This document shows, in pieces, positions 2,013-23,208 of a DNA stretch of 52,510 nt; the first letter of the stretch is position 1; every line of letters starts with the position of its first letter. The notes under the pieces were generated by a model. The model was not told the DNA's origin. It made no database searches and was given only the letters and a program-made list of their open reading frames with translations. The stretch lies in assembly GCA_017656505.1 (NCBI GenBank), contig JACDNU010000014.1:1-52510 (forward strand). The letters are read 5' to 3'. The translations under genes were made by a program, and so were the position numbers. The DNA comes from Archaeoglobus sp. Lineage in GTDB: Archaea; Halobacteriota; Archaeoglobi; Archaeoglobales; Archaeoglobaceae.

Positions 2013-2564
2013 GTGATCGCGGCGATAGCGGGACTAATCATCGGTTTTATCTTCATGGAAGTCACGGGAATCACCAAATTCAGCTCAATTCGGAAGGAAA
2101 GCGAAGTTTCTGAAAATTTTGTAGATCTTGAAGAAATAAATTCTGAGGTTGAAGAAGCTATTAGTCCGGATGTTGAGCGATTTTTGAACTTGAGGGACAG
2201 AATTGAGGAAGGAGAGGAAGAGAGAAAGCCAATGAGCTTTGATGAGTTTATTGAGCAACTTACAAGGAAGTACATGCTCGTGGATGCTACGATATCTAAC
2301 AAGGAGGGTCTGGTTGTTGCTTCCAACAGCAAAACCCCTGAGGATGACGCTGCCATGGCAGTTGAGATGGCGAGAAAGGTCAGGAACATCTATGGGGGGG
2401 TTAAGGAGATCATCCTTGGAACTGAGGGAGAAAAAAGGTACATCTTCAGACTTCCGGGTGAGGAGGAGATAATCGCCCATGTAAGGACAAAAAGGGATCT
2501 TAGCTATCCTGAAATCAGGAACTTCAAAAAGGACGTTATGAATTTCATGGAGGGTTACGTATGA
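2013..2564 (+). CDS. Membrane-anchored roadblock/LC7-domain protein
   Basis: 183 residues. An N-terminal hydrophobic segment (about residues 2-19) anchors the protein; an acidic linker (25-75) follows. A roadblock/LC7-type alpha-beta domain (about 75-180) has the pattern M-L-V-D-A-T-I-S-N-K-E-G-L-V-V-A-S typical of MglB-like proteins, which regulate small GTPases or scaffold membrane complexes. It opens a four-gene operon with a coiled-coil protein (ATGA overlap at 2561), a MinD-like ATPase and a small membrane protein, so a role in positioning or polarity is inferred. Start: GTG 2013 is the first standard codon, but the ribosome site at 1981-1988 suits an ATT start at 1995, which would add six residues (I-I-T-I-T-D). 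Confidence 0.8.
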   Translation: MIAAIAGLIIGFIFMEVTGITKFSSIRKESEVSENFVDLEEINSEVEEAISPDVERFLNLRDRIEEGEEERKPMSFDEFIEQLTRKYMLVDATISNKEGLVVASNSKTPEDDAAMAVEMARKVRNIYGGVKEIILGTEGEKRYIFRLPGEEEIIAHVRTKRDLSYPEIRNFKKDVMNFMEGYV

Positions 2565-3286
2565 ATCCACTCATAATTTTTGCTCTCATGGTTCCCATTT
2601 TACTCAATCCAACTGCAGTTAAACCAGGGGAGGAGATTTCTGTATCCCTCTATGGCAATGGAACGTATGTGCTAGAGATTTCTGATCCTAATATCTATTT
2701 TAACGAGAGTCTTACGAACAAAATCGTTGCAACCCCTGGAATTTACGAGATAAAGGTTGGTTTTGAAACAACTCCGGGGATGAAGACATTATCTGTAAGA
2801 TATGAAAACGGCTCTCTTGCCTCTCCACCTAAGAACTTTCTCGTCTTACCTCTTTCAGAAGCTGATCTGAGCAATCTCATCCAATCTGCATCGAAGGTGG
2901 AGAGTGAGCTAATTTCGCTGAAGAAGCAGATTATTACTCTTGAAAATGAGATTAAGCAGAAAGAAGCCGAGATTGAAAAACTGAAGAGTCAGCCTCAGAG
3001 TAATGGTGAGAAAATAAAAGACCTTGAAGCTCAGATTGAAAAAATGAGGTTGGATCTTTTGACTAAGGAGAATGAAGTATCCAAGCTAAAACTCAAAATT
3101 AACGAACTGAACGGCACTATATCTTCTCTTCAAACTCAGCTGGAAGAAGTTAAATCTGAGAAGGCTGAACTGGAGAGCCAGATGAGCAGTCTCGGCTCAC
3201 CAGAATTTGTGGAGGCTACAAAGCTTGGGTTCTTCTTCGTTTTAGCGTTCACAGCTGGGATACTTATTTCTTTGCTAAGGAGGTGA
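2561..3286 (+). CDS. Exported coiled-coil protein with C-terminal membrane anchor
   Basis: 241 residues, not recognised as a named family. A short hydrophobic N-terminus (residues 3-16) looks like a signal sequence. Residues 20-95 are a beta-rich domain of Ig-like character, rich in N-x-S/T sites (for example N-G-T and N-E-S). Residues about 105-212 form a long charged coiled coil with heptads of Leu, Ile, Glu and Lys. A transmembrane helix (about 218-239) ends in R-R, which puts the coiled coil outside the cell. The start overlaps the previous stop by four bases. The architecture suggests an envelope stalk physically linked to the cytoplasmic MinD and roadblock partners; that link is inference. 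Confidence 0.75.
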
Positions 3287-4068
3287 AAAATTTGGCAAGA
3301 ATAATAACGGTGGCGTCAGGAAAGGGAGGAGTTGGAAAGACTGTGTTAGCGGCTAACATCGGAATAACTCTCTCCCTCTACGGCAAAGATGTGACGATTT
3401 TGGATGCTGACATTGCAATGGCAAACCTAGAGCTAATCCTTGGGATGGAAGGGATGCCGATCACGCTCCAGCATGTACTTTCTGGAGAAGCTTCGGTGGA
3501 GGAGGCAATCTACACCGGCCCAGGGGGGGTGAAGATTGTTCCAGCGGGAATATCGCTCGAAGGTTTGAGGAAGGTAAATCCCGATTTGCTTGAGAACGTC
3601 TTACTCTCAATTCTGGAAAGGACTGAAATCCTTATCCTTGACGCTCCTGCAGGTTTGGAGAAAAGTGCGATTATAGCTTTAGCTTCAGCTAACGAGCTCC
3701 TCCTCGTAGTTAATCCCGAAATATCCTCGATAACCGACGGACTAAAAACGAAGATGGTGGCGGAAAGGCTGGGCACGAGATTGCTGGGTATAGTTGTGAA
3801 CAGAGTTACTTCATCGGGCATCGACATGGCGAAAAAGGAGATTGAGGCAATTCTCGAGGGCAGGGTCATCGCAGTAATTCCGGAAGATCCGGAGGTGAGG
3901 AAGTCTGCTGCCTTTGGACAGCCAGTCGTTCTCAGGACTCCGAATTCCCCTGCTGCGAGAGCCATAAAGCAGCTCGCCGCGAAGATTGGAGGGGTTAAAT
4001 ACGTCGAGGAGTACGCCGAGGTTAAGGAAAGTCCGATCAAGAAACTGCTGAAGATATTCAGGAGGTGA
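3283..4068 (+). CDS. MinD/ParA-family P-loop ATPase
   Basis: 261 residues, the usual MinD length. It has the deviant Walker A motif G-K-G-G-V-G-K-T (13-20), an [10 protein letters not shown] segment (about 40-49) and a switch II motif L-I-L-D-A-P-A-G (117-124). The last residues [12 protein letters not shown] form a basic amphipathic helix like the membrane-targeting tail of MinD. Such ATPases dimerise with ATP on membranes and place partner proteins. The partners here are probably the two coiled-coil proteins and the roadblock protein of the same operon, since no MinC or MinE is present. The GTG at 3283 lies inside the ribosome site AAGGAGGTG; TTG at 3292, six bases after that site, may be the true start (M-A-R-I-I-T-V). 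Confidence 0.9.
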
Positions 4069-4072
4069 TGGC

Positions 4073-4258
4073 ATGGGTTTCTTTGAGACGTTCATTCTGA
4101 CACTCCTCTTCATAAGCCTGATCATGAACATATTCCTTTATCTGAAGGTAAAGCAGCTCAATACCGAGCTGAGAGATGTTGGAAGTAAGGTTGAGCTTAC
4201 AAAGGAGGAGCTCTCCCAGATAAGATCGAGAATTGAGAAGATGAGAAAGGAGTTTTAG
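4073..4258 (+). CDS. Small membrane protein with cytoplasmic coiled coil
   Basis: 61 residues: one N-terminal transmembrane helix (about 4-24, F-F-E-T-F-I-L-T-L-L-F) followed by a charged coiled coil (26-61). The ATG follows a GGAGGTGA site that overlaps the stop of the MinD-like gene, so the two are translationally linked. No family recognised. Size and topology suit a membrane docking or activating partner for the ATPase, which is inference. It is the last gene of the operon; a T-rich stretch follows. Confidence 0.75.
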   Translation: MGFFETFILTLLFISLIMNIFLYLKVKQLNTELRDVGSKVELTKEELSQIRSRIEKMRKEF

Positions 4259-4283
4259 AGTTTTAGTAACCTAGCTCTGTAAC

Positions 4284-4312
4284 CAATTTTTCCAATTTTG
4301 TCTTTAATTTTC
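4284..4312 (+). terminator. T-rich probable terminator after the MinD operon
   Basis: Several T-runs (CAATTTTTCC, AATTTTG, AATTTTC) lie just after the last gene of the operon and before the end of the convergent helicase gene. Poly-T stretches are the usual archaeal termination signal. No hairpin is needed or seen. Confidence 0.4.
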
Positions 4313-4317
4313 TATCT

Positions 4318-6156
4318 TTAATCTTTAAGCTCTTCCCAAGCCTCCAATATTCTTCTTCTAGCATCAGAGAAATCCACGATTTCCGGCCTGAGAAAGCTCG
4401 GAAGTAGTCTTGCATAAAGTTTCTCTCTGTATCTTTCATCTCCCAAAACGAAAAGCGCCTTATCCTCCTTAGACCTCAAAGCCCTTCCTAACGCTTGACT
4501 TGCCCTATGCAAGGCTGGAATGACGTAAGAATAGTACCAGCCTTTCTCCTCCCCATAAAGACGGCGGTAGTAGTCGATGTAAAGCTTACTCCTTAAACTC
4601 ATTCTGTCAAAGGGAATTCCAACCAAGAACACTCCTTCCAGCTCTTTTCCGGGGAAATCTGCCCCTTCTGCAAATCTTCCAGTCATTGGAGCAACTAAAA
4701 TCCCACCATCGCGCTTGAAGTCATCGAGAAGTTTTCTGGCCGCATCTCCCTGCATACCCTGTTTTTCCACATATATTTTCCTGCTCATCTTCTTTGCCGT
4801 CTTTCTTATCTTTGGAAGAAGATCGGTCTGAATTCTGTAGCTGGCCGAAAATATCGCCAGATTTGCATCTATCTCCATAAACGATTCGATGAGTCGAGCA
4901 TACTTTTCAGCTTCCTCTTTCGAAAGTTCCTCCCCCCTCGTGCTTAAACCTCTTATTATCAAGCACTTGGATTCTCCAAGTTCGGCTCTGAAAACTCTAC
5001 CCTCCCATTCCTCAAGTCCTATCGTTTCTGCAAATGCGTTAATCGGTTTTAGCGTTCCGGAGCAGAACACGCATTTTCTGAACTGTCTCCATACATCCCT
5101 TAGAATCTCTGCGCTCCTCATGTCCCATCTTTCTATGATCAGATTTTTTGGCTCCGCTGTTGCGATAAATGCCACGCCATCCTTCCCCAAAAACTCAAGA
5201 GAATCAAGGAAAAAGGATGCGAGATGGTAAGCAGAACTTCGCGGGGCTTTTTCCTCTTCAAGCCTTCTCCTTCTCACGAATTCCCCTACCTTTCTCAACT
5301 CCGCAAGATATTCTCTTAGCTCTTTGTTACCTTTGTTAAACCCTGACTCTATGAATATTCCTAAATCGATCGTTCTTTCCTCCTCTTTCGCTTTCTGCAT
5401 GTTCTTGTGAATTTTTAAGGCAATTTCCTGCATTTCAGTCACGATTTCGGCCAATTCGTTTTCTTCCAGCAAGTTAAGTTCTTTAATAGCGTTTTTGAAT
5501 GTGGAGAGAGTGATCTGGTCGGAGTTAATGTTCCCTACAACTCTCAAGTTATGTGCCTCATCAACAACTAGGAAGCAGGCTTTGAAGGGAATTATGCTCC
5601 TTATCACCCAGCTCATTCCCGGATGGATGATGTAGTTGTAGCTCAGAGCAACCAGATCTGCATGATACAATAGTTCCCTCTGCAAATAGTATGGACAAAC
5701 CTCCGCTTCGCTGCAAATCTCGATTATCTCAGAGTATAGTAAGGGTCTTGTTGGATTTATCCTGTAATAGCTTAGATTTTCAAAATAAGGGCATTTCGCC
5801 TTGAAACTTTTACAGAAATACGCGACTGAGTCAGTATCCGTTAAGCCTCTCTGCCTAGCTGCAAGGCACATATCCCTCTTTCCGCGGAAAGAGAAACCGA
5901 AAAACTTCTTTTTGGTCTTTTTATTTATTTCTTTAAGCTCCTCAACTGGCCTATCTGCCTCGTTTCCGGTTCTGACAGCCCATATGATTGGGTAAGATTT
6001 GTTTAGAAGAGCTGAAAGGATGACTGCTGTTTTTCCAAATCCCGTAGGAGCATCCAAACATACGTTTTTATCGCTTTCAGAGATGAACTTAATGGCCTCC
6101 TCCTGACCCTCTCTGTACGGGTAGGGGAACCTTGCCGTTGCCCTTGTCGTTACCAT
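4318..6156 (-). CDS. xpd: XPD/Rad3-family DNA helicase with Fe-S cluster
   Basis: A superfamily 2 5'-3' DNA helicase, typical XPD length (612 residues from this start). Residue numbers here count from an upstream GTG at 6189. Walker A is A-P-T-G-F-G-K-T (47-54) and the Walker B box V-V-D-E-A-H (208-213). Four cysteines (108, 126, 133, 165) between them match the 4Fe-4S domain that XPD, FancJ and DinG use to split duplex DNA. A C-terminal motif VI (Q-A-L-G-R-A-L-R) is present. The ATG at 6156 is preferred: the protein then begins close to F-P-Y-P-Y-R-E-G-Q as in other archaeal XPDs, and a CTTTTTAG box lies about 26 nt upstream. Likely role: DNA repair or damage sensing in the cytoplasm. Confidence 0.92.
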   Translation of the reverse strand: MVTTRATARFPYPYREGQEEAIKFISESDKNVCLDAPTGFGKTAVILSALLNKSYPIIWAVRTGNEADRPVEELKEINKKTKKKFFGFSFRGKRDMCLAARQRGLTDTDSVAYFCKSFKAKCPYFENLSYYRINPTRPLLYSEIIEICSEAEVCPYYLQRELLYHADLVALSYNYIIHPGMSWVIRSIIPFKACFLVVDEAHNLRVVGNINSDQITLSTFKNAIKELNLLEENELAEIVTEMQEIALKIHKNMQKAKEEERTIDLGIFIESGFNKGNKELREYLAELRKVGEFVRRRRLEEEKAPRSSAYHLASFFLDSLEFLGKDGVAFIATAEPKNLIIERWDMRSAEILRDVWRQFRKCVFCSGTLKPINAFAETIGLEEWEGRVFRAELGESKCLIIRGLSTRGEELSKEEAEKYARLIESFMEIDANLAIFSASYRIQTDLLPKIRKTAKKMSRKIYVEKQGMQGDAARKLLDDFKRDGGILVAPMTGRFAEGADFPGKELEGVFLVGIPFDRMSLRSKLYIDYYRRLYGEEKGWYYSYVIPALHRASQALGRALRSKEDKALFVLGDERYREKLYARLLPSFLRPEIVDFSDARRRILEAWEELKD

Positions 6157-6230
6157 TCTTGGACTATCGACTGGAAGACTAAAAAGCACTTCGGGTGGGT
6201 TGAAAGTTTGGGAATTTAGGTGAAGGCAAA

Positions 6231-6256
6231 GGTAGAATTCAGAGGTAGAATTCAGT
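6231..6256 (+). repeat. Tandem 13-nt repeat
   Basis: Two head-to-tail copies of a 13-nt unit (GGTAGAATTCAGA) lie between the helicase start and the phosphodiesterase stop. It is one of many short tandem repeats at gene borders in this window. Confidence 0.85.
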
Positions 6257-6280
6257 TAGTTTAATCAAATTTTTCGAACT

Positions 6281-6814
6281 TTAGATCTTAAACTTCCATT
6301 CCTGGCTGAGGAGCTCCTTTTCCAGCTCTAAAAGAGTTGCTCTGACCTCCCTTCCTCGAATATCCAGAAACATACAGGAAGGTTTCATGCTTCCACCTCC
6401 GCCTCCCCACACTCCTGTTGCGCTCCCGGGATTCAGCAGCAGTATCTCATCGTGATGCAAATCAGGGGAATGGGTGTGTCCTGAGACGAGGATGTCAACT
6501 CCTAACTTCTTCCCTATCTCCTTCAGCTGCCTCCTATCCCCCCTTGGATACACCTGATCTCCATGGATCAGACCTATTTTTAGCCCTTCAATTTCAATAA
6601 TTTCCTGCTCTGGAAAAGGGAGGTGATCCATGTTTCCTCTCACAACTCTGACTTCAGAAATGGTGTTTAGATACTCCAGAATCTTTCTGTCAGTCAGATC
6701 TCCAGTGCAAAGTATAAGATCGAATCTCTCACTCTCAATTTTTTGCCTGATTCTTTCTGGAATCTCACTCGCCCTTCTCGGGATGTGTGTATCTCCTATT
6801 ACGAGAATCTTCAT
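6281..6814 (-). CDS. YfcE/MJ0936-type metallophosphoesterase
   Basis: A 177-residue calcineurin-like phosphoesterase of the small YfcE/MJ0936 (Vps29-like) type, cleaving phosphodiesters with two metal ions; the natural substrate is unknown. Metal motifs in order: G-D-T-H, C-T-G-D-L, R-G-N-M-D, L-I-H-G-D and S-G-H-T-H. N-P-G-S near the end is also typical. The frame is open to 6868, but the first 18 residues are unlike the family; M-K-I-L-V-I-G-D-T-H at 6814 is the normal N-terminus. The stretch V-W-G-G-G-G-G-S is unusually glycine-rich. Confidence 0.9.
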   Translation of the reverse strand: MKILVIGDTHIPRRASEIPERIRQKIESERFDLILCTGDLTDRKILEYLNTISEVRVVRGNMDHLPFPEQEIIEIEGLKIGLIHGDQVYPRGDRRQLKEIGKKLGVDILVSGHTHSPDLHHDEILLLNPGSATGVWGGGGGSMKPSCMFLDIRGREVRATLLELEKELLSQEWKFKI

Positions 6815-6919
6815 ACTTGTAGATTGGTTTGGAGAGTAAAAATTTGTTTTTGCGATGCCGCTGTGCAACCAACATTAGTTGTTATCGGTTATCTGGATCA
6901 GTACATTTGCTTAATTAAC

Positions 6920-7423
6920 TCAGGACTTTGCAACTGAAAGGATATCTTCAGGCTTTATCACAGAAATTCCAGTTTTTCCCCCGAATACCTCTATTAAAAC
7001 TACCCAGTCCGGGTTTTTGAGGTTGACCTTCCTTCTGACCTCCTTTGCAACCTCCTCGATTATTTCCCTTGTGTGCAAGCTGGTGTGTCTCTTTTCAACC
7101 GTTATCCTGAAGCTCTCGTCCTCGCCAATCTTTCCGATCAGCTCTCTCACAGCCTTTTTCATTTCTCCTAAATCCGTTCTCGTAATCTTTTCGAGCGGTA
7201 TGTACCTTATAGTGTGCGAAAACAACTCGGATTTCTCATTTATCAGCTTTGATATTCCTCTGATTGCCCCTAGGGCATCATCCACCTCTGCGAAAAGCAA
7301 ACCTCTAATTCCGGTTTCTTCAACCTTTGCTTCGATGCCGAGAATCGCGAAGATTTCCTCAGCTTCGAACTTTCCAACGAATTCCTCACCCCTTCGCGTG
7401 GTGATCAGCAAACCCTGAACCAT
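6920..7423 (-). CDS. THUMP-domain RNA-binding protein (Tan1-like)
   Basis: About 167 residues, beginning M-V-Q-G-L-L-I-T-T-R-R-G-E-E; an ATG six codons upstream (7441) is possible. The N-terminal ferredoxin-like part and the following THUMP domain (F-R-I-T-V-E-K-R-H-T-S-L, then L-K-N-P-D-W-V-V-L-I-E-V-F-G) match stand-alone THUMP proteins related to Tan1, which assists tRNA cytidine acetylation in eukaryotes. No catalytic domain is present, so it probably presents tRNA to a modification enzyme. The specific partner is not visible nearby. Confidence 0.85.
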   Translation of the reverse strand: MVQGLLITTRRGEEFVGKFEAEEIFAILGIEAKVEETGIRGLLFAEVDDALGAIRGISKLINEKSELFSHTIRYIPLEKITRTDLGEMKKAVRELIGKIGEDESFRITVEKRHTSLHTREIIEEVAKEVRRKVNLKNPDWVVLIEVFGGKTGISVIKPEDILSVAKS

Positions 7424-7459
7424 AATCAAGCATGCACTCAAAATAAATTAATTTTAATC

Positions 7460-8500
7460 CTAAGACTGCCAATCCTCCACTCTCAAAACTGCCGGAATTT
7501 CTCCGAGATATTCCGCAGCGGTAAGCAGATTCTTTCCTTTCCTCTTTGCCTCATCCCAGACTTCCTTCGTTCTTTCCTTGAATTTTGGCTCTCTTGGCAG
7601 GTGATGGTCGTAGATAATCAGCTCCGTGTCGGTTTCTTTCAAAATTCTTAGAGCATTCTCGATGGTTCTCCGGAAATTTATCAGATTGAGCGTGTATCCG
7701 AGCATGTACGTCATCGGGCCGTCAAGAACTAATATCTCTGGATTCTCTTCAACTATCCATTCAGCGTAATCCTCGATTATCGGGCCGTTGAGATCTGAAG
7801 TATGGATTAGCTTCATCCCCCTGTATTCGATTACGGTAGAGAAAACCCATCCAACCCTTGAATACTCTATTCCGTGGAAGAGCGGTTCGGTAAACCTGAG
7901 TCTCGTTTTGCCAATTTTCAGATTCCTTCCTTCTGCGAATTTCAGTTCAAAATGATTGGATTTTACCTCTGGAATCCTCTTGTAATTCTTCCATTTCTCG
8001 ACCCTCTTCTCAAACCATCTCCTGCCTTTTTCCAGAATTTCCTCCCTTCTTTTTTGGTAGTCCCCGAAGTCTTTTCCTGCAGATTCGAGATTCAGCAAGG
8101 GATCTTCATATTCTTTTTCAAGAGGTTTTTCAAGACTATCTTTTAAGTTTACACCGAAAAATTCGAAGATTCTCTCATAAAAAGCTTCAGCCCTTTTCCT
8201 CTGGGAATCATTTATGAACTCGTTGGGATTTTTTGCAAATAAAATTGAATTCGAATACATCTCAGCTTCGCGAACAAAATGATCGTAGTGGTAGTGAGAA
8301 ATCACAGTCACATCCACATGAAGCTGATTTATTTTCTCCAAAGCTTTCTCGTACCATTCAATTTTCTTTTCTTGAGGCGCAGGAAAGCCTGGATGCATTA
8401 TCGCTGCCCCTGGGTCGATCAGGATGTCTATGTCTGTTTTAACGAGGATACATGAGGATTTTGCACCCATTGAATCAAACCAAACCGGCTTGAAGTTCAT
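7460..8500 (-). CDS. UPF0282-type metallo-beta-lactamase-fold hydrolase
   Basis: 346 residues with the metallo-beta-lactamase motif S-H-Y-H-Y-D-H (68-74) and later metal ligands in H-T-S-D-L-N-G, L-V-L-D-G-P and I-Y-D-H-H-L-P. Length and motif order match the archaeal UPF0282 family, whose substrate is unknown. It begins at the ATG 8500. It is probably a cytoplasmic metal-dependent hydrolase; nucleic acid or small-molecule targets cannot be told apart from sequence alone. Confidence 0.88.
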   Translation of the reverse strand: MNFKPVWFDSMGAKSSCILVKTDIDILIDPGAAIMHPGFPAPQEKKIEWYEKALEKINQLHVDVTVISHYHYDHFVREAEMYSNSILFAKNPNEFINDSQRKRAEAFYERIFEFFGVNLKDSLEKPLEKEYEDPLLNLESAGKDFGDYQKRREEILEKGRRWFEKRVEKWKNYKRIPEVKSNHFELKFAEGRNLKIGKTRLRFTEPLFHGIEYSRVGWVFSTVIEYRGMKLIHTSDLNGPIIEDYAEWIVEENPEILVLDGPMTYMLGYTLNLINFRRTIENALRILKETDTELIIYDHHLPREPKFKERTKEVWDEAKRKGKNLLTAAEYLGEIPAVLRVEDWQS

Positions 8501-8742: not shown

Positions 8743-10050
8743 ATGCTCGAGTCATCTGAGAAAAAGATCTTGCTGGACGAGGATGAGATGCCAAAGAAAT
8801 GGTACAACATACTCCCAGACCTGCCAGAGCCCTTGCCTCCGCCTTTACATCCCGCTACAAACGAACCGCTGAAGCCTGAGGATCTGGAACCGCTCTTTCC
8901 GAAGGAGCTGATAAAGCAGGAGATGAGTTCTGATAGCCACATCAAAATCCCTGAAGAGGTGCTTGAAGTTTACAGGATGTGGAGGCCGACACCCCTAATA
9001 AGGGCGGAAAGGCTTGAAGATTTTCTTAAAACTCCCGCTCGTATCTATTACAAGTATGAAGGTGTTAGCCCGCCGGGAAGCCATAAGCCCAACACGGCAG
9101 TTGCCCAAGCTTACTACAACATGAAGGAGGGCGTTGAGAGGCTTACAACCGAGACCGGAGCGGGTCAGTGGGGATCGGCTTTATGCTTCGCAACCAACCT
9201 TTTCGATATGAAATGCACCGTTTACATGGTTAAAGTTAGCTATGAGCAGAAGCCTTACCGTAGGATTATAATGGAAACATACGGCGGTGAGGTAATTCCA
9301 AGCCCATCGAACAGAACCGAAAGCGGAAAAAAGATTCTTGAATCTAACCCGAATACTCCAGGAAGCTTGGGCATAGCGATCAGCGAGGCTGTTGAAGATG
9401 CGGCAAAACACGATGACACAAAATACAGTTTGGGCAGCGTTTTGAATCATGTTCTGTTACATCAGACGATAATCGGCCAAGAAACCAAAAAGCAACTGGA
9501 AAAAATAGATGAGAAGCCGGACATATTAATTGGGTGCGTTGGTGGAGGAAGCAACTTTTCCGGCCTAGCTTATCCATTCGTTAAAGAGTCGATGGATAAT
9601 GGCATGCGAATAGTTGCAGTGGAGCCGGCTGCTTGCCCTACGTTGACTTCTGGGGACTACAGGTACGATTATGGAGATACGGTAGGCTTAACTCCTCTAC
9701 TTAAGATGTTCACCCTTGGCCATGACTTCATTCCCCCACCCATCCATGCTGGAGGTCTGCGCTACCATGGCGATGCTCCAACGCTAAGCTTACTTGTTGC
9801 AAAGGGAATAATCGAAGCTATTGCAGTAAAGCAGATTCCAACCTTCGAAGCGGGCCTGATTTTCGCAAGGACTGAGGGAATAATACCCGCCCCAGAATCG
9901 AACCACGCGATAAGGGCTGTGATAGATGAAGCTTTGAAAGCAAAAGAAAGGAACGAGGAGAAGGTTATTGTATTCGGATTGAGTGGGCATGGATATTTCG
10001 ATCTTTCTGCCTACGATTCTTTCTTGAGTGGAAAGCTGAACGATACCTGA
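8743..10050 (+). CDS. trpB2: Tryptophan synthase beta-like protein (TrpB2)
   Basis: 435 residues; a PLP enzyme making tryptophan from indole and serine. It is of the TrpB2 class, longer at the N-terminus (P-P-P-L-H-P-A-T) and lacking the interface needed to bind TrpA tightly. The PLP lysine lies in P-G-S-H-K-P-N-T (K115), the substrate loop in E-T-G-A-G-Q-W-G, and the phosphate loop G-G-G-S-N at 267-271. No other trp gene is nearby, as is common for TrpB2, which may act on free indole or in serine metabolism. Transcription appears leaderless from the ATG at 8743. Confidence 0.93.
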
Positions 10051-10108
10051 GTATCAGAATTTCTCAACTATTTTTAAAACTTCTCAATTTGGTAGTAAAA
10101 AAGGTAAC

Positions 10109-10120
10109 ATTTAAATTTTA
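10109..10120 (+). promoter_or_regulatory. TATA box for the cysteine-rich lipoprotein
   Basis: ATTTAAATTTTA is centred 26 nt before the ATG at 10140 and selects this internal ATG over the open frame start at 10089. Confidence 0.6.
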
Positions 10121-10139
10121 TTTGAAAATATTCAAAGCT

Positions 10140-10598
10140 ATGAATAAAACGATGTTAGCTGTTGTTATGCTAACCTTGCTGATTGGATTCGGCTGTTTAT
10201 CGCAGCAATCCCAAACATCGAAGATATCCTTTGTACCGGAGGTAAAGGGTTGTGCCGCTAGCAATACAAGTGAGGCTAATGCAACGAAATCTTTTGGAAA
10301 GGAGAGGGAGCCTGAGATAAAAATAGAAAAAAATGGGGTCATTTACTCAAGAGCGATCTCCCACCTCTGCTGTAGAACCGTTAAATTGGAGTATAAGATC
10401 GAAGATTCGACCATAAACATCTATGAAATCTGGAACGGAATAGGCTGCAAGTGTATCTGTTTCTCCGAAATAGCAGGGAAGCTTGAAAATCTACCTGCTG
10501 GAAAATATACCATTAACGTTTACGAAACGGGAACCAAACCGGACGGCAAACCGATGGAGGAAAAACTGATAATTTCCAAGGATGTTTCGATAAGCTAG
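10140..10598 (+). CDS. Cysteine-rich lipoprotein, unknown function
   Basis: 152 residues. It begins M-N-K-T-M-L-A-V-V-M, runs through a hydrophobic signal and reaches a lipobox L-I-G-F-G-C with Cys19 as the lipidation site, so the mature protein is tethered outside the membrane. The mature part has a Thr/Ser/Asn linker, then a beta-rich domain carrying C-C-R and C-K-C-I-C clusters. These cysteines could bind metal or form disulfides. I do not recognise the family. It stands alone between trpB2 and the convergent aspartate kinase, with its own promoter. The 17 codons upstream of this start are unlikely to be translated. Confidence 0.75.
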   Translation: MNKTMLAVVMLTLLIGFGCLSQQSQTSKISFVPEVKGCAASNTSEANATKSFGKEREPEIKIEKNGVIYSRAISHLCCRTVKLEYKIEDSTINIYEIWNGIGCKCICFSEIAGKLENLPAGKYTINVYETGTKPDGKPMEEKLIISKDVSIS

Positions 10599-10656
10599 GG
10601 GGATAAATTTAATTATAAATTTAATTTAACTTTAATAATTAGTTAGTAATTTATAA

Positions 10657-12051
10657 TTAACCTTTCGCCTTCTCAAGCTCGAATTCCTTATGCAGAACTC
10701 TCACAGCATCCTTTCCTTCCTTCTTCGAAACAGCAAAGGATATGTTGTATTCCGAGCAGCTCTGACTTATCATCACTATGTTGATCTTGTTCCTCCCCAA
10801 AGCTGAGAAGATTCTGCCCGCGACTCCGGGTGTTCCTGCCATTCCCGCCCCTACAGCGCTCACTACTGCAACATCGCTAAGTTTTTTCACGCTCACGATT
10901 CCATTCTCAAGCTGCTTGAGGGCAGAGTAAGCTCTATCGACATCCGACTGGTCGACAACTATTGAGAGGTTGAGTTCGGAGGAGCTCTGGGAGACCATAA
11001 TCACGTTAACTCTTTCCCGTGAAAGCCTTCTGAACACATCCGACATAATCTCTGCAAAATCGAAGCCTGCCCCTTCGATGTTTACTATCCCAACTTTCTC
11101 AATCAAACTCAAGGCTTTTACGATGTCCTTGGTTGAATCACTCTCTTTCTTTATGACAGTTCCCTCCGCATCGGGATTGAAAGTGTTCTTTATTCTCACC
11201 GGAATTTCTTTCCTCATCACCGGCTCCAAGGCTCGTGGATGCAGGATTTTCGCTCCAAAATGGGAGAGCTCCATCGCCTCCTGATACGAGATCTCTGGAA
11301 TCAGCCTCGCTTCAGGAACTATTTTCGGATCTGTGGTAAGCACTCCATCAACTTCCTTCCAGAGCCAAACCTCGTCAGCATCCAAAGCTGCGGCAATTAA
11401 AGTAGCTGTCAAATCGCTCCCGCCTCTGCCGAGGGTTGTGATACTTCCATCCTCAGCCCTGCCTATGAAGCCAGTAATGACTGGGGTGGACTTCTTTATC
11501 TTGATTAGGGGATCTAGTCTGCTTTTTATTATGCTGTAAACCTCCTGAACAGGTTTTGCCCTACCAAAATTTCTATCAGTAAGAATTCCAGCATCACCGC
11601 CTGTCATCGCAAGTGAATCTACTCCCAAAGAGAGAAGCGAGGCTGAAAGGATTGGAGCAACCAGTCTTTCACCGAATGAAAGAATGAAGTCTCTGCTCCG
11701 CTTCGTAAGCTCGCCTAGGTAACCTATCCCAAGCAGAACCTTTTCGAGCTCATCTAAAAGTCGGTCAACCTTCTCAAAAACCTTGTTCTGCAAATCTGGA
11801 TTTTTTACAGCCGTACTTATAGCCTCATAATGCTTTTTTGTCAGCTCAGCGATGAAGAGCTTAACGTAACTGGAGGAGGGCTCTTTGTAACATTTTTCTG
11901 CCGCCTCGATTAAAGCATCGGTAACGCCTGCCATTGCAGAAACGACAACAGCTTTTTCAAAATCCTCAAACTTCTTGACAAGATTGGCTACGTGGAGAAT
12001 ACTCTCTCCGTCCTTAACGCTCGCCCCACCAAACTTCATCACAACTCTCAT
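10657..12051 (-). CDS. lysC: Aspartate kinase
   Basis: 464 residues. It phosphorylates aspartate, the first step to lysine, threonine and methionine. The N-terminus V-M-K-F-G-G-A-S-V is the nucleotide-binding signature; S-F-G-E-R-L, T-L-G-R-G-G-S-D-L-T-A and V-D-G-V-L-T-T-D-P follow. Two ACT domains at the C-terminus (from about residue 310) indicate feedback inhibition by an amino acid; which one is not clear. A strong GGAGG site precedes the ATG. A TTTATATTTC box at about 12117-12126 suggests its own promoter with a short leader. Confidence 0.95.
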   Translation of the reverse strand: MRVVMKFGGASVKDGESILHVANLVKKFEDFEKAVVVSAMAGVTDALIEAAEKCYKEPSSSYVKLFIAELTKKHYEAISTAVKNPDLQNKVFEKVDRLLDELEKVLLGIGYLGELTKRSRDFILSFGERLVAPILSASLLSLGVDSLAMTGGDAGILTDRNFGRAKPVQEVYSIIKSRLDPLIKIKKSTPVITGFIGRAEDGSITTLGRGGSDLTATLIAAALDADEVWLWKEVDGVLTTDPKIVPEARLIPEISYQEAMELSHFGAKILHPRALEPVMRKEIPVRIKNTFNPDAEGTVIKKESDSTKDIVKALSLIEKVGIVNIEGAGFDFAEIMSDVFRRLSRERVNVIMVSQSSSELNLSIVVDQSDVDRAYSALKQLENGIVSVKKLSDVAVVSAVGAGMAGTPGVAGRIFSALGRNKINIVMISQSCSEYNISFAVSKKEGKDAVRVLHKEFELEKAKG

Positions 12052-17424: not shown

Positions 17425-18276
17425 CTAATCTAATTTGTGAACTCCTGTCTTTGATATTTTGGAAGAGAATGCAAATCCATAGTCTTTGAGCAAATCTACG
17501 GGGGAATCTGAGAAGATAGCTTTACCGAGCATCACCATGGAAGCCCGATAACCCTTTCGTTCAATCTCTTCTATGATCTCAGCAAGCTCATCGTCCATTA
17601 GGCCAGTCTTCAATGCAAATTCCTTTGAAAGCTTGAAAAGATTATCCAGACTCGGATCAAGAGGGAATTTTTCTACAGCCTCCAATCCAAATTTCTGGAT
17701 CTTCTCCACGACATCCTCATCCTTCAGTATCTTCTTGGTTGAAATCGGGCCTAAAACTAGAAAGCTTAGCTCTCTACCAAAGCTGAACCTCTCGATTTCC
17801 GCTCTGCTGGGTGATGCGGCCTTCTTCCTTAAAACAACACCGCCATAATACTGGCAAACCACATCACCCAGGCCGGTGGAGCTTAGAACTTCACATTCGT
17901 GCGAAAGGTCGGCAAGCTCAAGAGGGGGCATCTTCAAACCTAGTTTTTCGTTAATTTCAAATGCCGATGCAAGGCACGATGCCCCGCTGAAACCAAAACC
18001 ACAGCCTATTGGTATCTCAGCCTTGATCTCGAGTTCTCCATTAAAAAACATTCTTTCAAAAAGGGTCTCAATCGTTTTAAATTTGAAGTCTTTCCCGTTT
18101 ACCTTGATTTTAGCTGTTTTTGAGACTGTTCTTACTTTTGCTTCCTTTGTTCTTGCCTTTACTCTTACACCCCTCTCAAGGGTTATCCCCAATCCGAGGG
18201 AACCCGTTGAGAGAGGATTGTCGGAATAGAAAGGTGAAAAGAACGCTGTAACGCTTGCGGGAGCGAAGTAGGTCAT
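17425..18276 (-). CDS. Pantoate kinase
   Basis: 283 residues, GHMP kinase superfamily. The ATP loop is P-I-G-C-G-F-G-F-S-G-A-S (89-100), and the N-terminus begins A-P-A-S-V-T-A-F-F-S-P. Archaea phosphorylate pantoate with this enzyme, then couple beta-alanine with phosphopantothenate synthetase, in place of PanC and CoaA. It starts six bases after coaBC ends, the next enzymes of the same CoA pathway, which supports the call over other GHMP kinases. The synthetase gene itself is not in the window. Confidence 0.92.
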   Translation of the reverse strand: MTYFAPASVTAFFSPFYSDNPLSTGSLGLGITLERGVRVKARTKEAKVRTVSKTAKIKVNGKDFKFKTIETLFERMFFNGELEIKAEIPIGCGFGFSGASCLASAFEINEKLGLKMPPLELADLSHECEVLSSTGLGDVVCQYYGGVVLRKKAASPSRAEIERFSFGRELSFLVLGPISTKKILKDEDVVEKIQKFGLEAVEKFPLDPSLDNLFKLSKEFALKTGLMDDELAEIIEEIERKGYRASMVMLGKAIFSDSPVDLLKDYGFAFSSKISKTGVHKLD

Positions 18277-18282
18277 AGAATT

Positions 18283-19500
18283 TTAAGCTAAATTTTGAGC
18301 TAAGACGTCTTCGATGTAGATCTTGACGATCTTTTCAGCTACATCCGATTTCAGACCCTCAATCCACTCCTTTCTTCGTTTGGTGATAACAAGAACTCTC
18401 GTATCCTCTGTTCCCATCCCTTTCTCGAGCACATCGTTGGCAACAACCATCGAAAGTCTGTCGTCTATCATCTTCTCGTAGGCTATGTTGTAAAGTTTCT
18501 CCTCACCAACTCCTGTCTCAGCCTTGAAGCCTATAACCTCTCCATCATAAATCTCTCTCACTTTATGCAGAATCTTTGGCGCAGCTTTTAGGTGGAGAAT
18601 AAGTTCTTCCTGCGTCTTTATCTTACTTTCTGCCATCTCGATCGTGAAGTCAGCAGCGGCGGCAGCTGAAACGAAGAGATCACACCTCTTTACTTCCTCC
18701 AGCGAGTGATCCAACATGTCCTGTACGCTCCTCACTGTAATCTCTTTAAAATCAGGCAATCTTACGTTTCTTGGCTTGGAAGTGATAATCACAACTTCAG
18801 CCCCCCTTCTCCAGAGTTCCAGGGCTATCTCGTGTCCCATCAGACCAGAGCTTCGATTGCTGATGAACCTTATCGGATCTATCTGCTCGTAAGTAGGGCC
18901 AGAAGTGACGACAACTCTTTTCCCGGCGAACTCCTTTCCGTAGAGCTTTCTCTCAACATGGAGGCAGATCGTCTCGTTATCCGCGAATTTGGCCTTAGCT
19001 TCCGAATAAACAGGCTCTACTATCTCTATCCCCATCTTCCTCAGTTTTTCGACATTCTCCTTTACAGCTTCATTCTTTATCATTCCCTCATGCATCGCTG
19101 GAACGAGGATTATCGGCTTTCCCGAGCCTAAAGCTGTTGTCGCCATTGTTGTTACCGGAGTATCATCTATTCCGTTGGCAATTTTTGAAATCGTGTTTGC
19201 GGTGGATGGAGCTACGAGTAGCAGATCCGCCACCCCATCAAGGCCTAAAAGCTCGACATGCTCTATCTTTCCCGTTATCTCCGTAATAACTGGGTTGTCA
19301 GTGGCAAACTCTAAAGCATATGGATGAATTATTTTCTGAGCAGCTTTACTCATCACAGCTACAACTTCAGCCCCCCTTCTTGCAAGTTCTCTGGCGAGCT
19401 TAACAGTTTCAACAGCAGCTATGCTTCCTGTAACAGCGAGAACTATCTTCCTCCCTTCAAGCTTTCTGTTCTTTGTCCCTCTCAATCTTTGAAGATGCAT
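18283..19500 (-). CDS. coaBC: Bifunctional phosphopantothenoylcysteine synthetase/decarboxylase
   Basis: 405 residues. The N-terminal flavin domain (CoaC; K-I-V-L-A-V-T-G-S-I-A-A at 18-29, and P-A-M-H-E-G-M, near the P-x-M-N-x-x-M motif but with His in place of Asn) decarboxylates phosphopantothenoylcysteine. The C-terminal domain (CoaB; V-T-S-G-P-T-Y-E, N-R-S-S-G-L-M-G, A-A-A-A-A-D-F) joins cysteine to phosphopantothenate. The only plausible start (ATG 19500) lies 44 bases inside the upstream polyferredoxin gene, so the two are translationally coupled. CoA synthesis is therefore tied to the hdrA-like operon. Confidence 0.94.
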   Translation of the reverse strand: MHLQRLRGTKNRKLEGRKIVLAVTGSIAAVETVKLARELARRGAEVVAVMSKAAQKIIHPYALEFATDNPVITEITGKIEHVELLGLDGVADLLLVAPSTANTISKIANGIDDTPVTTMATTALGSGKPIILVPAMHEGMIKNEAVKENVEKLRKMGIEIVEPVYSEAKAKFADNETICLHVERKLYGKEFAGKRVVVTSGPTYEQIDPIRFISNRSSGLMGHEIALELWRRGAEVVIITSKPRNVRLPDFKEITVRSVQDMLDHSLEEVKRCDLFVSAAAAADFTIEMAESKIKTQEELILHLKAAPKILHKVREIYDGEVIGFKAETGVGEEKLYNIAYEKMIDDRLSMVVANDVLEKGMGTEDTRVLVITKRRKEWIEGLKSDVAEKIVKIYIEDVLAQNLA

Positions 19501-20782
19501 ACTTCCTCACAGCCTCCTCGAAATTTTTGATGTTTCCGGTTTCTATTGCCCTTCTGTAAACCGGTCTCTTTAAAACATCTTCTATCAGATTTATCGTAGA
19601 GGAAAGAACCTCAATCTTCTTTTCATCTCTCTCCATGAATTCCCCTTCCTCGGCAACCTCAACCTCTTCCCTCTCTATGATGAATTTCCTACCCTCCTCA
19701 ACTTTTTGCTTTTTAACTATTCTTTCCACGGCATTCTCCCAAGATTCTCTCCAAGGAGGGCTGTAAGCAAGCTCCTTAGAGAAAACACTTGTCCTTTCGA
19801 CATTAATCAAATCATAAGGGCAGGAGTTCTCGCATGCGCCGCAGTAAACGCAGAAATCTTCATTAAAATCAACTCTCGATTTGTCTTTGGAAACATACCA
19901 AACCTTATTGTACTTGCAAACCTTTATACATGCTCCACAGCCTACGGGATCGCAGCGGTACATTCTGGCCTCGAAAAGAGAAAGCTTTCCCTCGAAGGGT
20001 TTTATTGTTTTTGCAGCATCATACGGACAGATCTTCTCGCAGTAAGCACAATGAGAGCAGAGATCCTGATCTATGCTGATCTCGGCTATCTTCTCAGGCA
20101 ATTGATAGTCAATGAGTTTTCCCCCCTCAACTTTGATCGCATCTTCGGGGCAAATAATTTCACAAAGCTTGCAGTAATCGCATTCCTTCTCATCGATCAG
20201 GATCTCCCTCTCGTAAGGAAGGATATCGTAGGGCTGAGGCTCTTTTTCAATCATCTTGAAAACTTCGCAGAATTCAGCACATATTCCGCAGTAGTTGCAC
20301 TTCTCAAAGTCTATTACAACCTTCCCCTTAACATCGGGTGGATTCTTAATCTCGATATCTTGCCTTGTCAGCCTGATATCTCGCTTTATCGCGTTTGTTG
20401 GACAGGCTTTGTAGCAGAGCGTGCATTCAACGCATTTGTCTTCGTACTTGTAAGTATGGGCAACAAGAGAGATTGGGAGAGTGGCTTTCTCTACTTTCTC
20501 GCCGTTTATGTAGAATTCGAAACAGTCAAAAGGACAGAATGCATAACAAATCCCGCAATAAGCGCATTTAATGTGATCTATGATAACGGGAGGAATGTCA
20601 AGGCCAAGGGCTATATCATGTATCGGCCCGAGCTCTATTGCAGCAACCGGACAGGCATAAACGCAAACACCACATCCATTGCATCTTTTGTAATCGTAAA
20701 CGAGCAGGCGATCTTCATCTTCAGCATGCTGCTTGAATCTGAAGATCTCCCCTTCAATCTCTACGTCCCTTTCAACTTCCAT
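19457..20782 (-). CDS. Polyferredoxin with eight 4Fe-4S motifs
   Basis: 441 residues. Eight four-cysteine motifs can be counted: seven of the form C-x2-C-x2-C-x3-C (for example C-N-G-C-G-V-C and C-D-Y-C-K-L-C) and one with C-x4-C-x2-C-x3-C (C-D-P-V-G-C-G-A-C). The layout resembles polyferredoxins such as FwdF and MvhB, which wire electrons between large complexes. The last 90 residues have no cysteines and are charged and helical, possibly a docking tail. It lies 80 nt after the hdrA-mvhD fusion, so it probably passes electrons to or from that flavoprotein. A specific Fwd or hydrogenase partner is not in the window. Confidence 0.92.
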   Translation of the reverse strand: MEVERDVEIEGEIFRFKQHAEDEDRLLVYDYKRCNGCGVCVYACPVAAIELGPIHDIALGLDIPPVIIDHIKCAYCGICYAFCPFDCFEFYINGEKVEKATLPISLVAHTYKYEDKCVECTLCYKACPTNAIKRDIRLTRQDIEIKNPPDVKGKVVIDFEKCNYCGICAEFCEVFKMIEKEPQPYDILPYEREILIDEKECDYCKLCEIICPEDAIKVEGGKLIDYQLPEKIAEISIDQDLCSHCAYCEKICPYDAAKTIKPFEGKLSLFEARMYRCDPVGCGACIKVCKYNKVWYVSKDKSRVDFNEDFCVYCGACENSCPYDLINVERTSVFSKELAYSPPWRESWENAVERIVKKQKVEEGRKFIIEREEVEVAEEGEFMERDEKKIEVLSSTINLIEDVLKRPVYRRAIETGNIKNFEEAVRKYASSKIERDKEQKA

Positions 20783-20862
20783 CCAAATCTTCTCCTTTTG
20801 TATTTCGAAACTATGAAACCATCAAAGCTAGGAACTATCAAATTTACATCAAGTTTATCTGT

Positions 20863-23208
20863 TTATTTCCTTAACTCAACCCTCACATCATTCTCAACCG
20901 GCCCAATTGTCTTGATCTCGTTAATAAATCGCGTCACATCCGCGATTATTTCCGTCGCCTCTCCAGCAGAATGCCAGGAAGTAGTTACTCTCCGCGGATT
21001 TATGCCAACTACTTCCAAAGCTTTCTTTATCGCCTCAACCCTCTCTCCTGCTTTAAAATTCCCGTGCTTGAAATGGCACTCCCCAAGCCTGCAGCCTGAA
21101 ACGATAACACCATCCACACCGCTTTTCAATGCAAGCAGAATCCACTCTGGATCAACTCTTCCAGAGCAAAGCGTTCTTATCACGCGGATGTTTGGATCGT
21201 ATTGCAATTTCATCGTTCCAGCAAGATCTATTGCTCCGTAGCTACAGTACCAGCACGCGAACATGAGAATGAGTGGAAAAACTTTCTTTTCCTCTGTTAA
21301 AGCCCTGATCTGGGCTTTTATCTGCTCATCACTGAAGAATCCCATGTCGATTGCATCAGTCGGGCAGGCAGCCACGCAGATACCGCACATAACGCATGCG
21401 TTTGGATCAATTTCTGCTCTCTTTTCTCTTAAAAAGGCAGCATTGAACTTGCAGACTCTCACGCAAATTCCGCAACCAATACATTTTTCCCTATCAACGA
21501 AAGCGTAGTAGGGGTCCAGCTCTGTTGTGCCTTTAATCATAAGCTGCACAGCCTTGCTGGCTGCGAGTCCAGCTGTTGCAATCGAATCCTGAATATCTTT
21601 TGGTCCGCTGCTTGTACCGGCAAGAAATATCCCTCTCACATCCGTTTCAGCGGGTCTGAGCTTTGGATGGGCAGGTTCATAGAATCCATCTTCGCCCATT
21701 GAAATTCCGAGTTTCGTCGCTATCTCTGTATTTGGTTCCAAACCAATGGATAAGACTACGAGATCGAATTCCTCCTCTCCAAACTCTCCCGTTAGCGTGT
21801 TCTCATAACTCAAAATTAGGTTCGAATCCTCACCTTCCCATATCTCCGCAACCCTCGACCGAATGAATTTCACACCACTCTCCTGTACTCTCCGGTAGAA
21901 TTCTTCATACATTCTTCCAAAGGCTCTGATGTCGATGTAGAAGATATAAACATCCGAATCTGGGTATCTCTCTTTGATTGTATAGGCATTCTTTAGTGAG
22001 GCCATACAGCAAACCCTGCTGCAGTATTTATTTGTGTTCTCATCTCTACTTCCAACGCACTGGATGAAGGCGATTTTTTTGGGGATCTTTGAGTCGGAGG
22101 GTCTAAGAAGCAAACCATGCGTTGGACCGGAAGCAGAAAGCAATCTTTCAAGCTCGAGAGTGGTTATGACGTTTGGATAGACACCATATCCATATTCCGG
22201 CTTTTTTCTTGCATCAAAAGCCTTGTAGCCGGTTGAAACTATTATCGTTCCAACCTCTAATTCTACTTCCTCAATTTTCTGCTCGAAGTCTATCGCTTCC
22301 GGCTCACAAGCTTTCTCACACAATCTGCAACCAATGCAGTGTTCCCAGTCGATAGAAGCGTAAAGGGGTGTTGACTGTGGAATTGGTATGTAGATGGCTT
22401 TCCTAACTCCGATTGCATAGTCGAACTCGTTCGGAACTTCAACTGGACAAACAGAGGAGCAATCATCTATACATCCCTTGCATTTCGCGGTATCGACGTA
22501 TCGGGGATACTTAACAACTGTAACCTTAAAATCCCCCACATGCCCCTTGACCTCTTTAATTTCTGCGTTCGTGATCACATCGATGTTTGGATGATTCCAG
22601 ACCTCGCTCATTTTTGGCGCGAGGATGCATATCGAGCAATCGTTCGTTGGAAAAACCTCGTTGAGCGTTGCCATATGCCCGCCAATTGTCGGTCTTTTTT
22701 CGACAAGGTAAACCTTAATGCCAGAGTCTGCGATGGTTAATGCTGCTTCAATGCCTGCAATTCCGCCTCCTATGACTAGGGCGGACTTCTTAACAGGTCT
22801 TCCGATCCTTTCTAATGGTTTAAGCTCTCTTGCACTTGCAACAGCCATTCTTATCAGGTCTTTCGCCTTCTTTGTGGCAAGCTTTGGAGAGCTAATGTGG
22901 ACCCAGGAACACTGCTCCCTTATATTTGCCATTACAACCATGTACGGATTCATTCCCGCTCTTGCCGCCATCCTTCTGAATGTGCTCTCATGGAGCTTTG
23001 GGCTGCAAGCCGCTATAACGAGTCTGTCGAGCTTGTAATCCTTAATTGCCTCGATAATTTCCTCCTGTGCGGAATCAGAGCATGAATAACTTATATCCTT
23101 TGCAAAAACAACTCCTTCCAAGCTTTGTGCATAGTTAACGAGCTCCTCAACATCAAGAACCCTGGCGATGTTCAGGCCGCAATGGCACACAACCACACCG
23201 ATCCGCAT
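20863..23208 (-). CDS. hdrA: HdrA-like flavoprotein fused to MvhD
   Basis: 781 residues. HdrA part: an N-terminal region with conserved cysteines (C-H-C-G, A-A-C-S-P), FAD-binding G-G-G-I-A-G (147-152), the N-D-C-S-I-C motif (189-194), a C-x2-C-x2-C-x3-C ferredoxin insertion, a second FAD/NAD half, then two more 4Fe-4S motifs (C-I-G-C-G-I-C; C-V-M-C-G-I-C). From about 645 an MvhD domain begins (A-C-W-Y-C-S-Y-G; S-G-C-R-L-G-E-C-H). MvhD normally links HdrABC to a hydrogenase, so the fusion is expected to bifurcate or confurcate electrons at FAD. No hdrB, hdrC or hydrogenase genes are adjacent. Confidence 0.94.
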   Translation of the reverse strand: MRIGVVVCHCGLNIARVLDVEELVNYAQSLEGVVFAKDISYSCSDSAQEEIIEAIKDYKLDRLVIAACSPKLHESTFRRMAARAGMNPYMVVMANIREQCSWVHISSPKLATKKAKDLIRMAVASARELKPLERIGRPVKKSALVIGGGIAGIEAALTIADSGIKVYLVEKRPTIGGHMATLNEVFPTNDCSICILAPKMSEVWNHPNIDVITNAEIKEVKGHVGDFKVTVVKYPRYVDTAKCKGCIDDCSSVCPVEVPNEFDYAIGVRKAIYIPIPQSTPLYASIDWEHCIGCRLCEKACEPEAIDFEQKIEEVELEVGTIIVSTGYKAFDARKKPEYGYGVYPNVITTLELERLLSASGPTHGLLLRPSDSKIPKKIAFIQCVGSRDENTNKYCSRVCCMASLKNAYTIKERYPDSDVYIFYIDIRAFGRMYEEFYRRVQESGVKFIRSRVAEIWEGEDSNLILSYENTLTGEFGEEEFDLVVLSIGLEPNTEIATKLGISMGEDGFYEPAHPKLRPAETDVRGIFLAGTSSGPKDIQDSIATAGLAASKAVQLMIKGTTELDPYYAFVDREKCIGCGICVRVCKFNAAFLREKRAEIDPNACVMCGICVAACPTDAIDMGFFSDEQIKAQIRALTEEKKVFPLILMFACWYCSYGAIDLAGTMKLQYDPNIRVIRTLCSGRVDPEWILLALKSGVDGVIVSGCRLGECHFKHGNFKAGERVEAIKKALEVVGINPRRVTTSWHSAGEATEIIADVTRFINEIKTIGPVENDVRVELRK

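Follow-up and report, generated by a model that had tools for sequence, protein, structure and literature searches.

With what does an HdrA flavoprotein exchange electrons when its direct neighbour encodes a polyferredoxin with eight clusters, and neither HdrBC nor a hydrogenase is encoded nearby? The question is raised by a locus in an Archaeoglobus genome (2.52 Mb in 95 contigs, 99.6% complete), of which the window, i.e. the whole stretch of DNA that was analysed, is one contig of 52.5 kb. An earlier note on this DNA had placed an HdrA-MvhD fusion beside an eight-cluster polyferredoxin at 19457 to 23208, without HdrBC or a hydrogenase in the vicinity. Both genes are indeed found there, on the minus strand and 80 nt apart, and profile NF040770 together with the cysteine motifs confirms what they are; the contig encodes no CCG-domain protein (HdrB/D), no NiFe hydrogenase and no second FlpD. 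The features of the locus are the following.

17425 to 18276, minus strand: pantoate kinase-like GHMP kinase of coenzyme A synthesis (NF040725, 176 bits, below the cut-off of 380)
18283 to 19500, minus strand: CoaBC, phosphopantothenoylcysteine decarboxylase / phosphopantothenate-cysteine ligase (TIGR00521, 430 bits, above the cut-off)
19457 to 20782, minus strand: FwdF-type polyferredoxin of 441 aa with eight [4Fe-4S] motifs and a helical C-terminal extension of ~85 aa (solved matches, fold, NF042909)
20863 to 23208, minus strand: HdrA2, i.e. HdrA with a C-terminally fused FlpD/MvhD, 781 aa (NF040770, FlpD, solved HdrA chains)

CoaBC overlaps the 3' end of the FwdF gene by 44 nt; this linkage is conserved in relatives, as is the pantoate kinase gene downstream of CoaBC, and the two genes would belong to the same putative operon as HdrA2-FwdF, with CoaBC being unrelated in function. 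Because the rest of the operon thus serves coenzyme A synthesis, co-transcription is no proof of co-function.

The larger of the two redox proteins is a complete HdrA-FlpD/MvhD fusion. It scores 1250.9 bits in a search with the NCBIfam HdrA2 profile NF040770 (cut-off 1100), its FlpD domain spans residues 647-769 (Pfam FlpD, 3e-45), and the solved structures closest to it are HdrA chains, with E values down to 8e-226. All HdrA clusters are conserved; C191, C194, E354 and K406 are invariant among 17 relatives, and so are C652, C655, C681, C706 and C711 of the FlpD part among 17 HdrA2 proteins. E354 and K406 align with E356 and K409 of methanogen HdrA, in the numbering of PMC12054007, and both of these were reported to be essential for flavin bifurcation in the methanogen protein (PMC12054007). 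By profile score, fused MvhD/FlpD cysteines and bifurcation residues alike, the protein is a member of the HdrA2 family (NF040770). A simple transhydrogenase would not need the bifurcation residues, and their retention counts against the role that is favoured below. When a plasmid collection was searched with HdrA2 as query, only distant relatives were returned.

The polyferredoxin had been described earlier as a long wire, a description that has to be corrected: by sequence, profile and predicted fold it is a FwdF homologue and not an Mvh-type wire. Seven CxxCxxCxxxC motifs and one variant (C277-x4-C282-x2-C285-x3-C289) make up the eight clusters, and the cysteines of all eight are invariant in 26 relatives. 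FwdF is its best-scoring family (NF042909, 224 bits, yet under the curated cut-off of 375), among solved structures it is matched best, and over nearly all of its length, by FwdF/FmdF proteins (E 5.6e-49 to 3e-46), and a fold search with its predicted structure (mean pLDDT 87) returned twelve matches at E<0.001, all of them FwdF/FmdF. The fold match reached E 4e-32 with a probability of 1.00; most global superpositions were loose, with an rmsd of about 15 A, as is to be expected for a long chain of small domains. An Mvh/VhuB-type identity was rejected, given 77 bits with the VhuB profile against 224 with FwdF and a weaker solved MvhB match (E 9e-22). It is the sole FwdF of the genome, being the top match to the FwdF profile with no other protein approaching it. 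Compared with the solved FwdF/FmdF proteins (PDB 5t5i, 7bkb, 9sw6; near full-length similarity, E 1e-46 to 1e-49), it is encoded outside the fwd operon and carries an additional C-terminus of ~85 aa that has no solved relative. That it also stays below the curated FwdF cut-off counts against its reading as part of a formylmethanofuran dehydrogenase (Fwd) module.

In methanogens, Fwd binds heterodisulfide reductase (Hdr) via its subunit F (PMC11656701). Since the polyferredoxin is of the FwdF type, that is, the Hdr-binding subunit of Fwd, one end of the pair very probably leads to formylmethanofuran dehydrogenase, and the earlier view that donor and acceptor are both open is not supported. What, then, might lie at the other end? 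By a narrow preference, we regard HdrA2-FwdF as the electron-transfer module of Fwd, with F420 as the likely partner and a mainly oxidative direction. The route is proposed from the binding of Fwd to Hdr via subunit F, from the finding that F420H2 can drive a methanogen Hdr-Fmd assembly (PMC12350162), and from the ability of Methanosarcina acetivorans HdrA2 alone to carry out ferredoxin-dependent F420 reduction with a Km of 6.4 uM (PMC5296606). HdrA, FwdF and Fwd catalytic genes are all present in the genome. FwdF would dock on Fwd, either on FwdABCD (contig C24) or on FwdB2/D2 with an iron-sulfur protein (contig C48); its eight [4Fe-4S] clusters would conduct electrons to HdrA2, where the ferredoxin domains and FAD would receive them and the flavin would exchange hydride with F420. 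When organic carbon is oxidized to CO2, electrons would run from formyl-methanofuran via Fwd, FwdF and HdrA2 to F420, and the F420H2 formed would feed Fqo and then menaquinone. Flow in this direction would be downhill in view of the published potentials, about -520 mV for ferredoxin and -380 mV for F420 (PMC5296606), whereas electrons could be driven back uphill only with the help of a high-potential branch, e.g. an HdrD-like protein reducing a disulfide. It is conceivable, if rather doubtful, that the pair goes further and works as a reversible oxidoreductase module between formyl-methanofuran (CO2) and F420 that needs no HdrBC and is built on an HdrA that left disulfide chemistry; in Archaeoglobi that reduce sulfate or iron, such a module would supply the route from the CO2 branch to F420 that has so far been missing. 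The physical complex of HdrA2 and FwdF, F420 as partner, the direction and the independence from HdrBC are what we infer here. M. acetivorans HdrA2 also works with HdrB2C2, with which it bifurcates (PMC5296606), an observation that counts against the favoured reading.

What does the rest of the genome offer by way of partners? The fwdCABD genes lie on contig C24, away from the HdrA2-FwdF contig, and contig C48 carries, next to CODH/ACS genes, fwdB2-D2 and upstream of them the gene of an iron-sulfur protein that is FwdG-like in its position. Genes for sulfate reduction are present (sat, aprBA and qmoABC on contig C21), as are DsrMKJOP-type genes on contig C11, beside an HdrA, an HdrA-like protein, FlpD and an HdrD-like protein; Mcr was not found in the genome, all of which agrees with the earlier view of an HdrA2-type flavoprotein in a non-methanogen. 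The only NiFe hydrogenase (contig C7) has a membrane-type layout, with a cytochrome b and a small subunit bearing the motif RRNFMKLAAA, and scores poorly with VhuA; a soluble MvhA/MvhG hydrogenase was not found. No adjacent HdrB and HdrC pair occurs at the loci read; the CCG-domain proteins encoded there are either HdrD-like fusions or members of lactate/glycolate-type loci. A further, single-repeat match lies on C7. The FrhB/FdhB_C family has only two members, FqoF in the Fqo operon and a paralogue 59% identical to it, which is accompanied by a small ferredoxin on contig C27 and not by an FdhA. F420H2 and formate had been named earlier as possible partners, and the former remains reasonable, as M. 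acetivorans HdrA2 reacts with F420 (PMC5296606). Formate via FdhAB is weakened, since no FdhB-type protein beyond these two was found; as other molybdopterin enzymes are present, it keeps some probability.

Related genomes, in which the earlier note had suggested looking for conserved partners, do retain the arrangement. Of 59 Archaeoglobi genomes from 16 genera, 51 yielded FwdF and 57 yielded HdrA2-like proteins with the thresholds applied, and 48 contain both a fused HdrA2 and a full-type FwdF. HdrA2 is directly followed by FwdF, on the same strand and 0-530 bp apart, in 30 of the 59, which belong to nine of the 16 genera and to two families; such conservation across a class of archaea excludes chance. 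In the HdrA2 tree (a quick one, with a root made uncertain by long outgroups), HdrA2 is linked to FwdF in both genomes of the second family and in each of the deep branches g4, g11 and g12; the linkage is therefore probably ancestral, and was probably lost in g5 as well as in the group that contains g2, g9 and g13. These four, comprising A. fulgidus-like genomes and three other genera, keep HdrA2 and FwdF unlinked, which means that adjacency is not obligatory; where HdrA2 is unlinked, FwdF stays with CoaBC and pantoate kinase. In one A. fulgidus-like genome (G001), the HdrA2 orthologue, 73% identical and from gene order presumably AF1238 of A. fulgidus, lies 368 kb from FwdF, and a FwdG-like protein, FwdB2 and FwdD2 are encoded about 4 kb beyond FwdF. 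Genera g3 and g16 have neither HdrA2 nor FwdF, and FwdB is kept in g16 and in one g3 genome despite this.

A second cluster in sister genera points the same way. A paralogue of HdrA2 with 51-52% identity, forming a single clade in the tree, occurs in genera g4, g11 and g12; it is clustered with a FwdF-like ferredoxin of ~260-280 aa, an FrhB-like F420 protein and a divergent HdrC-HdrB pair, and is directly adjoined in g4 and g11 by FwdA and FwdC; in the copy of genome G019, family scans confirm HdrA2, FwdA, the FrhB-like and the HdrB-like protein. F420, HdrA2 and Fwd are thereby joined in one cluster, which supports the same logic for the HdrA2-FwdF pair, the remaining partners of which would be dispersed in the genome. 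The FrhB/ferredoxin pair on C27 was considered as a counterpart of the clustered FrhB and rejected, its FrhB being only 25-29% identical to the clustered ones and, as noted, far closer to FqoF.

Could the pair instead be part of a full bifurcating or confurcating complex, in which HdrA2-FwdF joins an HdrD-like protein (fused HdrC-HdrB), either the orphan encoded on C2 or the one on C11, and couples Fwd and F420 to the reduction of a disulfide (e.g. DsrC)? The conserved E354 and K406, the intact set of HdrA clusters, the presence of these HdrD-like genes and the HdrC and HdrB of the paralogous cluster speak for it, and the methanogen Elp-Hdr-Fmd supercomplex uses F420H2 in this way (PMC12350162). 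Nonetheless, we consider it unlikely. Genera g6, g7 and g8 keep HdrA2-FwdF without any close relative of the stand-alone C2 protein, having only HmeD/DsrK-like matches of ~670 aa, so that the C2 protein is not supported as a universal partner; the C11 protein has an HdrA and a FlpD of its own beside it; and without Mcr there is probably no CoM-S-S-CoB. Alternatively, the two proteins might be neighbours that form no complex, with FwdF serving Fwd together with free ferredoxin and HdrA2 acting separately as a ferredoxin:F420 oxidoreductase. The unlinked genes of g2, g5, g9 and g13 fit this picture, as does the activity of M. acetivorans HdrA2 with soluble ferredoxin (PMC5296606). It is nevertheless decidedly improbable: nine genera retain what looks like an ancestral linkage, HdrA2 and FwdF are missing together in g3 and g16, and another HdrA2, the paralogue of the sister genera, independently lies beside Fwd genes and a FwdF-like ferredoxin. 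HdrA2 could also be no more than the HdrA subunit of a complete HdrABC-Mvh set encoded elsewhere, which the earlier note had named as the finding that would overturn its proposal. This is scarcely credible, since such a set was looked for in the genome and not found: C11, with an additional HdrA, an HdrA-like and an HdrD-like protein and FlpD, might suggest one, but that cluster has its own HdrA and FlpD, the sole NiFe hydrogenase is of the membrane type with its poor VhuA score, and the loci read hold no adjacent HdrB and HdrC.

How does the preferred reading of HdrA2-FwdF as a Fwd module linked to F420 compare with known systems? HdrA2 of M. acetivorans HdrA2B2C2 (PMC5296606) belongs to the same NF040770 family and shares the fused MvhD, the iron-sulfur motifs and FAD; here, by contrast, no HdrB2C2 lies beside HdrA2, FwdF is linked to it instead, and the host lacks Mcr. 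The methanogen Hdr-Fwd supercomplexes (Fdh-, Mvh- and Elp-Hdr-Fmd/Fwd; PMC11656701, PMC12350162) have in common with it an HdrA with an MvhD part and FwdF. They differ in that in the present genome, of a sulfate reducer without Mcr, no Mvh was found, FdhAB is unlinked, no HdrBC is nearby and HdrD-like fusions were the only ones found, and in that MvhD is fused to HdrA. In the Fwd of the ethanotroph Ca. Ethanoperedens thermophilum, the F420 reductase subunit FwdI replaces FwdF (PMC11493965); its end effect, formyl-methanofuran oxidation linked to F420, resembles the one proposed here, whereas FwdF is kept in our case and HdrA2 would be the flavin module. Both protein families and the methanogen Hdr-Fwd association are thus already known. 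What appears to be new is that the pair is conserved, without HdrBC or hydrogenase, in archaea that reduce sulfate and, probably, in iron reducers; no description of it was found in the open-access literature searched.

The published models of A. fulgidus do not settle how F420H2 arises without an F420 hydrogenase, and 'an unknown mechanism' was attributed to the HdrA homologue AF1238 (PMC3949148); literature searches for AF1238 and AF1644 gave only unrelated papers among the matches listed. The HdrA2-FwdF pair offers a testable answer, namely that Fwd, when it fixes or releases CO2, exchanges electrons directly with F420 by way of a flavin and not with free ferredoxin. If this is true, the Hdr-Fwd association of methanogens would be at work in organisms without methanogenesis as well.

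Two smaller points concern the locus. The C-terminal extension of FwdF (~85 aa) carries the motif LK-x-P/A-Y-x-R, which, when sought in the PDB and in the remaining proteins available, occurred in FwdF orthologues only and had no solved match. An antisense ORF of 511 aa with a TTG start (19706-21241, plus strand) was taken as spurious.

The polyferredoxin of the window ends in a helical extension, and the 3' end of its gene runs into the neighbouring coaBC:

19457-19720, window: C-terminal helical extension of FwdF (residues 355-441)
19457-19500, window: overlap of the fwdF 3' end with the coaBC start (44 nt)

Within this extension, Archaeoglobi FwdF orthologues carry an LK-x-P/A-Y-x-R-R motif, and the 349-aa FwdF of methanogens lacks this extension. 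No solved relative of the extension was found; it is possible that it serves as a docking element. The genes fwdF, coaBC and pantoate kinase remain linked even in genomes where hdrA2 has been relocated.

In three sister genera (g4, g11 and g12; loci L125 and L128-L131), a paralogous HdrA2 is clustered with an FwdF-like ferredoxin, FrhB and a divergent HdrC-HdrB, joined at L125 and L128 by FwdA/FwdC, in what is apparently an F420-Hdr-Fwd gene cluster.

Three further loci lie on other contigs of the same assembly:

9091-10652 (-), contig C27, L049: orphan pair, a ferredoxin (175 aa, four clusters) with an FqoF paralogue (59% identical to FqoF)
8744-10948 (-), contig C48, L052: second FwdB-FwdD set with upstream iron-sulfur protein, adjoined by CODH/ACS-type genes
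2427-7757 (+), contig C21, L004: benzoyl-CoA-reductase-like cluster

The last, named by eye from the sequences, comprises two dehydratase-type subunits, two ATPase-activator subunits and an iron-sulfur protein; because it directly adjoins qmoABC-aprBA-sat, its position suggests a breakdown of aromatic compounds that is coupled to sulfate reduction.
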